Positions 758 to 2,780 of a stretch of 64,000 nt of DNA are shown here, piece after piece. The first letter of the stretch is position 1, and the number at the start of each line of letters is the position of its first letter. The stretch lies in the NCBI GenBank assembly GCA_964023275.1, contig OZ029915.1, positions 19,259,775 to 19,323,774 of the forward strand, written 5' to 3'. The position numbers were made by a program, and so were the translations under genes. A model generated the notes under the pieces. It did no database searches. It saw only the letters and a list, made by a program, of their open reading frames with translations, and had not been told where the DNA came from. The DNA is from Norana najaformis. Taxonomy: Eukaryota; Annelida; Clitellata; Crassiclitellata; Hormogastridae.

Positions 758-2780
758 ATGGAATCAGACGATAGAAAACGGCTGAAGAAAAAGGAAAATC
801 ACTGCAGTTTAGTCGAAAATGTAATCTTCTGCCAAATACAAGATTACTTGTATCAGTATGGCATCCTATCAACAGATGAGGTGGAGGAAATTCAAAATAT
901 GCAGCCAAAATGCAATAGCGCTCAGATCAGAAGAGTAATCGTGTTTCTAGAAAACAATCCAAAGCCGGGTTTACTTTGTTCCTTCTGTGAAGTTCTCAAG
1001 GTTACAGGATACATTTGGATTGCCGTTGCCATCGAGAACACAGATATCTCCAAGGTACCTGATGAGGACGTAGTGGACTTGGCTGAATCGCGCAGTGAGA
1101 AAAAATTCACGATACTGGGCCAGCAGATATTGGCTGAAACACAGAAACTCAACAACCAACTGAGGAATTTGGAACTGAAACTCGCTCAGCTAGAGTTCAA
1201 GAATCATGAATCCGAGGAGCCTTTCAATGTACCATGCGCCGCTATAGGTTGGGATATGGTTGATGGTCCCATACCAAATCGATTCGTCAGCAAGTGTGTA
1301 GAGGAGTTCATGAGAAAACCACGTAAGAGTTTCAGCATGATCGAAAAAGTGACGTGTCGTCTGGGTCTCGAAGTCGTACTCAGCTTTTCAGACGTGTGTT
1401 TACAGAAAGACATCAGCAAGTGTGATGACACCATGATTGAATATGTGATCACAATGAGGCGAGTGGTCAAACGCATTGCAGCCGAACATGCAGATATCCT
1501 GAAAGAATGCTTAGATGACTTGAATATGCCGGAGATGAACGGATACCGCACAATTGACTCAATCGCTGATGTGCTTTTTGAGGATGACATGAATGTCAAT
1601 TGGGGTCGGATCATCTGCTGGTTCGCCTTCTGGGGTCAATTCGTTAAATATCTTCGTCCTTCCAAGCTTGAGAATCCCGAAGAGTTCGTGAAATTTTATG
1701 GAGAGTTTATTGGATTCTACTTGGCGAAGAGACTGCATCTGTGGATTGCAGGGGCTGGAGGATGGGTAAGTTCAAGACAACGGCACTACCCTACAAGCCA
1801 ACTGTGGGCTAACGCGTACCCACTGTTGTGCCTATAAGTCTTACTGTTATAATTATGCTAGTGTTGGGCCAGGGTTAGTCTGGTCGACGAACTGAGCCAG
1901 TGTGGGGCTGATTTGGTATGCTGACTGAGATATTACCTCAGTACAAGTATCGCAATTAATTGTAATTATCCGTTTCTTACGAGGATAATAATCCACGAAG
2001 TATCATCATATCCACATACACAGAGCATCAGTCGATGGTCTCTTCAAGTGAAACCGCAGTCAAAAATCAATCCGATCGAGAAGTTTAGTTGACACCAAAA
2101 TAGGTCGGGGTAACTGTCAGCACAGCAAAGTCCTTTGCTTGGAATGGTCGTTGGTCCTGCCCTTTTGAGCTGCTATCTGCTCCACGCATTCCTTTTAGTT
2201 CTTATACGTATGCTTCTGTTCGTAGTCTACACGTCATGTATCCAGGTATAGGGCATTTTTATAGATCCTTTTACAAATAACCGCCACATTTCAGGGCTGT
2301 GTAACTTTAAATTTGGCGTGTTTTTGAGTAGGCTCCATAGACATAGTTAGCCTGTTCAAAATTAGTCATTGCAAGGCCACTGGTCCGTTAAGGCGTCTCT
2401 GTTTTTGTTGTTTTAAACAACAGTTGAATGCTCTATATATTTCAGCTTTGTGAGAGCCAAACATTAGGCTACAAACTTTACTTTTAGATAGGCCTTTAGA
2501 GAGGTTACTTCTGTAAATGCCGTTTGTGATAGAAGTCTTTGACCGCTAGCCACTCAAGCTGTTTGGGTCCTCGTTACAAAAATAAGACCCAGTTAACTGT
2601 TGTGACGCAGTTCTTGTGTGGCGCTTAGAAATTTCGGCAATTTACGTTTACATTTACATTTTTATTTATATTTACTTGCAGCAAGCATTTGTCGAAATGT
2701 ACAGAGAAAGACAAACCGTTCTTTCAAGGACTCTCGGTATTGCAAGATTCATGTACGATTACTTTCCTCTCAGGCCTTAA
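758..2780 (+). CDS. CARD - coiled coil - Bcl-2 fusion protein (2 exons)
   Basis: Model: exon 1 758-1765, intron 1766-2681 (GTAAGT...TTGCAG), exon 2 2682-2780; 368 aa. Residues ~17-95 form a CARD: amphipathic helices with the family signature LSTDEVEEI and the FCEVL...TGY end. Residues ~112-150 are a leucine-rich coiled coil. From ~174 the fold is Bcl-2-like: BH1 NWGRIICWFAFWGQF (281-295), BH2 WIAGAGGWQAFVEMY (329-343), and a BH3-position helix near 230-253 (MRRVVKRI) lacking the usual G-D pair. The intron falls exactly after GGW of BH2, the ancestral intron position of BCL2-type genes, which supports the model strongly. The tail after BH2 is about 25 residues with no hydrophobic membrane anchor. 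CARDs assemble homotypically with Apaf-1/caspase-type adaptors and Bcl-2 folds bind BH3 helices; a link between the two is inferred. The ATG at 758 is the first in frame and follows a TATA-like box. Confidence 0.88.
1766..2681 (+). other. intron 1 of CARD-Bcl-2 gene
   Basis: AT-rich intron of 916 bases with consensus GTAAGT donor and TTGCAG acceptor. No repeat family, RNA gene or conserved open frame was recognised inside it. Confidence 0.8.
2682..2780 (+). CDS. exon 2 of CARD-Bcl-2 gene (second half of BH2, C-terminus)
   Basis: This 33-codon exon starts after a pyrimidine-rich TTTACTTGCAG acceptor and reads QAFVEMYRERQ..., matching the canonical AFVELY half of BH2. Its phase (0) equals that of the exon 1 donor after GGW. 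It ends ...YFPLRP then TAA, so the isoform is anchor-less. A different open frame covers the same bases and hides this reading, which makes the exon easy to miss. Confidence 0.85.
   Translation, partial: QAFVEMYRERQTVLSRTLGIARFMYDYFPLRP

Follow-up and report, generated by a model that had tools for sequence, protein, structure and literature searches.

A CARD and a Bcl-2 fold in a single chain in the annelid Norana najaformis, with candidate caspase sites in the linker between them

The locus described here raises the question of whether a CARD and a Bcl-2 fold are encoded in one protein in the annelid Norana najaformis and, if so, what such a protein might do. It lies near the start of the 64,000-nucleotide stretch that was analysed (the window; C3:19259775-19323774), and the whole genome (608 Mb, 17 contigs) was searched. 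On the forward strand, exon 1 (758..1765) comprises 336 codons in one open frame, with an in-frame TAA immediately 5' of the ATG; on the basis of the open frame, the Pfam matches and the aligned homologues, it encodes residues 1-336, which cover the CARD, a linker and the Bcl-2 fold as far as GGW. Its 3' end reads ...GGA GGA TGG, with the donor GGATGG/GTAAGT at 1765/1766. The intron (1766..2681, +; GTAAGT...TTGCAG) is in phase 0, directly 3' of the Trp codon, and closes with the acceptor TTGCAG/CAA at 2681/2682. Exon 2 (2682..2780, +) has 99 bases including the stop, and its product, QAFVEMYRERQTVLSRTLGIARFMYDYFPLRP-stop, supplies the second half of BH2 (QAFVEMY) and a C-terminal tail that, judged by frame and hydropathy, has no clear membrane anchor. 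Joined (758-1765 + 2682-2780), the two exons give a product of 368 amino acids.

This gene does not stand alone. A tandem paralogue is located upstream on the same strand; its exon 1 (C3:19250766-19251809) was found by the genome search and its exon 2 (C3:19252281-19252409) in the genome sequence, and 8.1 kb separate the latter from the window gene. A genome search with the paralogue exon 1 gave 12 matches, of which only the paralogue itself and the window gene span the region from CARD to GGW; in this search, a fusion whose domains are separated by an intron would not appear as a single match. Protein searches returned seven relatives with one gene and five with the other, a total of 12 that aligned along the whole chain. 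When the 14 sequences were combined in one profile and run against 5.77 billion proteins (E 0.001), the same 12 were recovered and no further ones. Eleven of these are known only from a source labelled 'lgn', taken here as Logan, a collection that may miss multi-exon animal proteins. The claim of the preliminary description that a CARD and a Bcl-2 fold share one chain is thus borne out by the same plan in the tandem paralogue and in 12 relatives, and we regard the predicted architecture as secure.

The relatives also bear on the exon join. P0001, which is 73% identical to the window protein, reads GGW-QAFVEMCRETQTVLSRTL... (GGW-QAFVEMC...) and matches the predicted join exactly, and P0009 and P0011 continue past GGW with tails resembling exon 2 of the paralogue. 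In the other nine, GGW is followed by Val, beyond which the sequence stops or departs from the rest; intron read-through would produce such a pattern. P0001, P0009 and P0011 were taken for spliced transcripts, from a source that gives no molecule type (DNA or RNA). In addition, GT directly follows the same Trp codon in all 19 of the other Bcl-2 frames examined in this genome, and likewise in the two tandem genes described here, suggesting that the Bcl-2 half retained an intron of the Bcl-2 family; the CARD, the linker and the remainder of the Bcl-2 fold upstream of GGW are all within one exon. The short second exon that had been proposed, with its join at 1765/2682, is thus supported indirectly, as P0001 reads through the same join and GT is found at the Trp codon in 19 of 19 frames. 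An earlier argument for a shared intron, drawn from the ends of the profile matches, was dropped because profile and query stop there by construction.

The Bcl-2 fold (residues 176-336; 1283..1765, +) is the more readily recognized of the two domains. The window protein matches PF00452 with 59.1 bits (E 6.7e-16) against a cut-off of 31.4, the full profile (positions 1-100) being aligned to residues 233-336, the paralogue scores 57.6 bits, and the cut-off is passed by all 12 of the family members scanned. A profile built on 6 of the 14 Bcl-2 regions found members of the Bcl-2 family in the PDB, with E values of 7.5e-15 for Bcl-2-like 4 and, at best, 6.5e-12 for Bcl-xL. The BH1 core NWGR (residues 281-284; 1598..1609, +) and the first half of BH2, the GGW at the end of exon 1 (1757..1765, +), are invariant in all 14 sequences, so that the Bcl-2 fold with BH1 NWGR and a BH2 split as GGW/QAFVEMY stands as it had been described. 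The BH3 position is different. The L-x-x-x-G-D of multi-motif members is absent from the 14 sequences, which have M-x-x-x-V/T-K instead in all but P0003, where V-D is found; the window protein has M233-R-R-V-V-K238 (1454..1471, +), in which the usual G-D is replaced by V-K. Thus, in the alignments to Bcl-xL and Bcl-2-like 4, 13 of the 14 sequences have either Val-Lys or Thr-Lys opposite the BH3 Gly-Asp, and P0003 has Val-Asp. As read from these alignments, the fold retains its groove signature (BH1/BH2) while its own BH3 is degenerate. The loss of G-D is evidence against a Bax/Bak-type killer, and the family is not classed here as Bax/Bak-like; its membership in the Bcl-2 fold stands on the profile. 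A C-terminal anchor is common, although not universal, in the Bcl-2 family, and the usual Kyte-Doolittle threshold for a membrane span is 1.6; no clear anchor was found, the best 19-residue mean being 0.53 in the window protein and 0.40-1.32 among five tails.

The evidence for the CARD (residues 1-95; 758..1042, +) is distributed over the family. With 19.9 bits (E 7.8e-4) against PF00619, the window copy is below the curated cut-off of 23.9 and, judged on its own score, would be a doubtful CARD. The paralogue, with 44.2 bits, is above it, and the cut-off is passed by 8 of the 12 members scanned, the window gene, P0002, P0004 and P0005 failing. (The Pfam scan covered 12 of the 14 members; P0008 and P0010 were left out, and both domains are present for them in the precomputed column.) A profile of the CARD region, built on 12 of the 14 sequences after exclusion of P0009 and P0010, in which the N-terminus is cut short, matched a designed protein in the PDB (E 1e-8) and then the CARDs of caspase-9 (7e-5) and Apaf-1 (2e-4), followed by MDA5 (3e-4) and RAIDD (1.4e-3). 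The family alignment has an invariant Asp29 and a nearly invariant Arg58, which correspond, in the printed caspase-9 alignment, to the Asp in LWD and the Arg in QAR. Such acidic and basic patches presumably form the Apaf-1/caspase-9 contact. The N-terminal CARD of the preliminary description is therefore supported by the paralogue, by the eight passing members and by the caspase-9 and Apaf-1 matches, but not by the score of the window copy.

CARDs are numerous elsewhere in this genome. There are at least 150 matches (150 of 507 candidates scored), and among the matches listed a hand count placed 125 on contigs C2 and C8, many of them clustered, which amounts to a large CARD expansion. In two neighbouring pairs, a CARD frame precedes a frame of 1657 or 1638 residues (L027:1455-6425(-) with L027:7058-7447(-), and L029:74-4987(-) with L029:5353-5754(-)). 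The long frame of L027 contains a SAM domain and a sub-threshold match to a STAND NTPase in Pfam, and we take it to be SAMD9-like.

For the Bcl-2 domain, 23 matches were found in the N. najaformis genome. Six similar short Bcl-2 exons (L019, L020, L021, L023, L024 and L025, on C17, C12, C2, C9, C4 and C15, respectively) share the pattern RLFxDGxxxWGR...LLCFGYR...GGW and represent a second group of Bcl-2 genes. A further Bcl-2 protein, L008 (C15:1958619-1958924), is encoded by a frame without a CARD; its N-terminus, MADRHDSVDSGISEFE, contains the motif DSVD and also DSGxxS, the latter presumably a phospho-degron pattern. The same genome has 29 matches to annelid haemoglobin linker domains, a family that marks annelids, the best at 118 bits. 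Scans for the GFP family and for mollusc haemocyanin gave 0 matches each, but they were equally empty in the controls and are therefore no evidence of absence.

To place the fusion among these genes, a tree was built from 16 Bcl-2 regions. Four of these were taken from the 14 fusion sequences and 12 from the 21 other matches in the same genome, of which seven short exons and two weak ones were omitted. The fusion sequences form one branch (support 100/100) with two sub-clades, window gene plus P0006 (93/90) and paralogue plus P0011 (92/89), indicating that the fusion is older than the duplication. The placement of this branch among the other Bcl-2 genes is poorly supported (43/81), in a tree with two very long-branched control rows. 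In the comparison of the paralogues by codon position, the differences at positions 1, 2 and 3 are, respectively, 0.47, 0.35 and 0.62 for the CARD, 0.36, 0.31 and 0.61 for the Bcl-2 part, and 0.63, 0.49 and 0.63 for the linker, a pattern that points to selection on both domains and to much less on the linker. The window gene thus belongs to a selected gene family and is not a chance frame. A viral origin was also considered and rejected, as none of the 85 pattern matches from a viral-contig scan was related by tblastn.

The linker (residues 96-175) is only 21% identical to that of the paralogue, and 3 of its 80 columns are invariant, all of them Asp (D104, D107 and D169). These residues fall in two short motifs at the domain borders. 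Site 1, D-V-V-D (104-107; 1067..1078, +), lies just C-terminal of the CARD; D104 and D107 are invariant, and D-x-[VI]-D is found in all 14 sequences (as DVVD, DLVD, DYID or DNID). Site 2, D-M-V-D (166-169; 1253..1264, +), lies just N-terminal of the Bcl-2 fold and has the same form in 12 of 14 (DMVD, DVVD, DTVD, DTID or DAVD), being missing from P0011 and P0012. In the paralogue, site 2 is DAVD and MAFFT aligned its first Asp with D169; site 2 is therefore matched across the sub-clades by motif and place, not by column. Exon 1 of the window gene contains exactly two DxxD, namely these sites, and other members have extra DxxD elsewhere, with eight in total in each of P0006 and P0007. When linkers were shuffled 5000 times each, the observed count of Dx[VI]D had P 0.001 for the window protein and P <=0.0092 in the 12 members with both sites, compared with P 0.15 for P0011 and 0.12 for P0012, which have a single site; these values serve only as a guide, because the test was run after the motifs had been seen and the rows are related. 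Dx[VI]D also occurs in 1 of the 12 other Bcl-2 proteins of the genome, none of which has a comparable linker.

At the level of sequence, a DxxD between the domains, as looked for in substrates of executioner caspases, is present at site 1 in 14 of 14 members and at site 2 in 12 of 14. In the window protein, the P1' residue of site 1 is Leu, which is poor for caspases. In the available text of PMC10942788, DxxD is given as the caspase-3/-7 consensus, and that of PMC11784259 reports, for chicken gasdermin E, a linker DAVD that is both required and sufficient for cutting by caspase-3/7. Cellular (host) Bcl-2 proteins are also described as caspase substrates that are cut in a loop (PMC1238745, available part). 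The D-x-[VI]-D motifs resemble executioner-caspase sites in this respect, and we refer to them as candidate sites. Neither these motifs nor the degenerate BH3 and the lack of a clear tail anchor figure in the preliminary description.

The segment between the two sites (1079..1252, +) forms a weak heptad helix at most. Hydrophobic bias at a/d positions exceeded that of shuffled sequences at P<0.05 in the window protein (0.043), P0002 (0.012) and P0003 (0.012), and in none of the other 11 sequences. The oligomerising coiled coil that had been proposed from the heptad stretch was therefore dropped as a firm feature, and the region between the CARD and the Bcl-2 fold is treated here as a linker, possibly helical.

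At 5163-6055 (+) of the window, two frames (185 and 126 residues) overlap in different phases and, on visual inspection, resemble a single beta-propeller protein interrupted by a frameshift; they had no Pfam match at E 0.01. Frames that, on inspection, resemble pieces of LINE-type reverse transcriptase genes lie at 44483-45136(-), 54233-54724(-), 53267-53647(-) and 40903-41358(-); at E 0.01, the first two matched nothing in Pfam. The 64-kb window was also scanned with Rfam and for tRNAs, and nothing was found, and a sigma-70 promoter scan, with a model not meant for animals, remained at chance level.

Taken together, the best reading of the window protein is that of a soluble adaptor with a CARD, in which a Bcl-2 groove acts as the gate and which caspases cut, a mechanism that we infer from its domains and motifs. 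The CARD would dock on the CARDs of a caspase-activating platform, which might be of the Apaf-1 type or a CARD-caspase. The groove would take BH3 ligands and thereby make CARD docking responsive to death signals, in the manner of CED-9 but within one chain. Executioner caspases would then cut the D-x-[VI]-D motif at each linker end, separating the CARD from the Bcl-2 domain, and such a cleavage would act as a one-way switch. As a whole, this combination of docking, gating and cutting is put forward tentatively, at slightly less than an even chance. A more speculative extension, on which we place somewhat less weight, is a caspase-operated fuse, in which the first caspases to become active would use the two sites to sever the sensor from the platform, so that commitment would become self-propagating or self-limiting. 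Whether the protein promotes or blocks death is not a distinction that sequence alone can make.

Other explanations can be weighed against the same observations. That the gene is an artefact, either a chance or dying frame or an erroneous joining of two adjacent genes, might be suggested by the sub-threshold CARD score and by the broken-looking frames just downstream; however, both domains lie on one continuous exon, the plan is common to 13 other sequences and there is a codon-position bias between the paralogues, and we consider an artefact highly improbable. For the Asp motifs, a role as acidic docking elements or structural caps at the domain edges, and not as protease sites, would fit their position at the borders, the location of site 1 inside an acidic run and the absence of site 2 from two members. 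The exact P4/P1 spacing at both borders of an otherwise variable linker argues against such a role, which is less likely than not but a serious alternative.

The function of the whole protein could also be read differently. It may be an innate-immune adaptor that forms CARD filaments downstream of sensors of the RIG-I/MDA5 or NLR type, with a Bcl-2 fold that provides mitochondrial or membrane placement as in MAVS. The abundance of CARDs in the genome, concentrated on two contigs, resembles an immune-type expansion, MDA5 is among the matches of the CARD profile, and P0011 comes near the cut-off for CARD_2 (27.0 versus 28.2 bits); on the other hand, the CARDs of caspase-9 and Apaf-1 outrank MDA5, and the five tails examined lack a clear membrane span, which makes an immune role rather unlikely. 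A decoy inhibitor would block CARD assembly and sequester BH3 ligands, with the DxVD sites as its off switch; the model for this is ARC, which we take to be a CARD protein. Such a decoy agrees with a chain that has no effector domain in Pfam, with intact groove signatures beside a degenerate BH3 and with the presence of caspase-type sites, but by sequence it is indistinguishable from a gated activator, and we regard it as rather unlikely, on a par with the immune adaptor.

The window protein can be compared with several known systems. It is like Bcl-xL, CED-9 and the Bcl-2-like 4 of 6wgz, presumably from Trichoplax, in its Bcl-2 profile match, NWGR and GGW, and like the other Bcl-2 frames of its own genome in that an intron divides BH2 immediately 3' of the Trp codon; it differs from the Bcl-2 family in its N-terminal CARD and linker, in the replacement of the BH3 'GD' and in the lack of a clear tail anchor. 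With Apaf-1, caspase-9 and RAIDD, its best natural matches in the PDB, it shares a CARD at the extreme N-terminus, but unlike them it shows no Pfam match to an NB-ARC (expected of Apaf-1 and CED-4), caspase or death domain in the 12 members scanned. MAVS has an N-terminal CARD together with a C-terminal transmembrane tail, whereas no clear span is seen here. In nematodes, CED-9 and CED-4 couple a Bcl-2 protein to caspase activation through two chains (PMC8998228, available part); here there is one chain, without NB-ARC. A built-in version of that interaction, as the preliminary description proposed, is conjectural. Gasdermin E likewise has a DxxD caspase-3/7 site (DAVD) in an inter-domain linker, where cutting frees one part (PMC11784259, available part), but its domains are unrelated and the sites described here are candidates. 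The closest precedent for a Bcl2 domain on an adaptor domain is the fusion of TRADD-N to Bcl2 in animals (PMC8195603, available part), which has TRADD-N in place of the CARD.

No report of a CARD-Bcl-2 fusion was found in the literature, in a search whose coverage excluded domain-architecture databases and most subscription papers, and the word 'CARD' is absent from the main text of PMC8998228, which names Capitella and Helobdella, in the form available. Both domains are well known; their combination is new as far as we have looked. A long-standing question in the evolution of apoptosis is whether Bcl-2 proteins act directly on caspase platforms, as CED-9 does on CED-4, or only via mitochondria. 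That a CARD and a Bcl-2 groove have been joined in nature, and kept so for long, suggests a benefit of such coupling somewhere in animals; a small two-domain protein of this kind may serve as a test object for the coupling and for its putative caspase switch.
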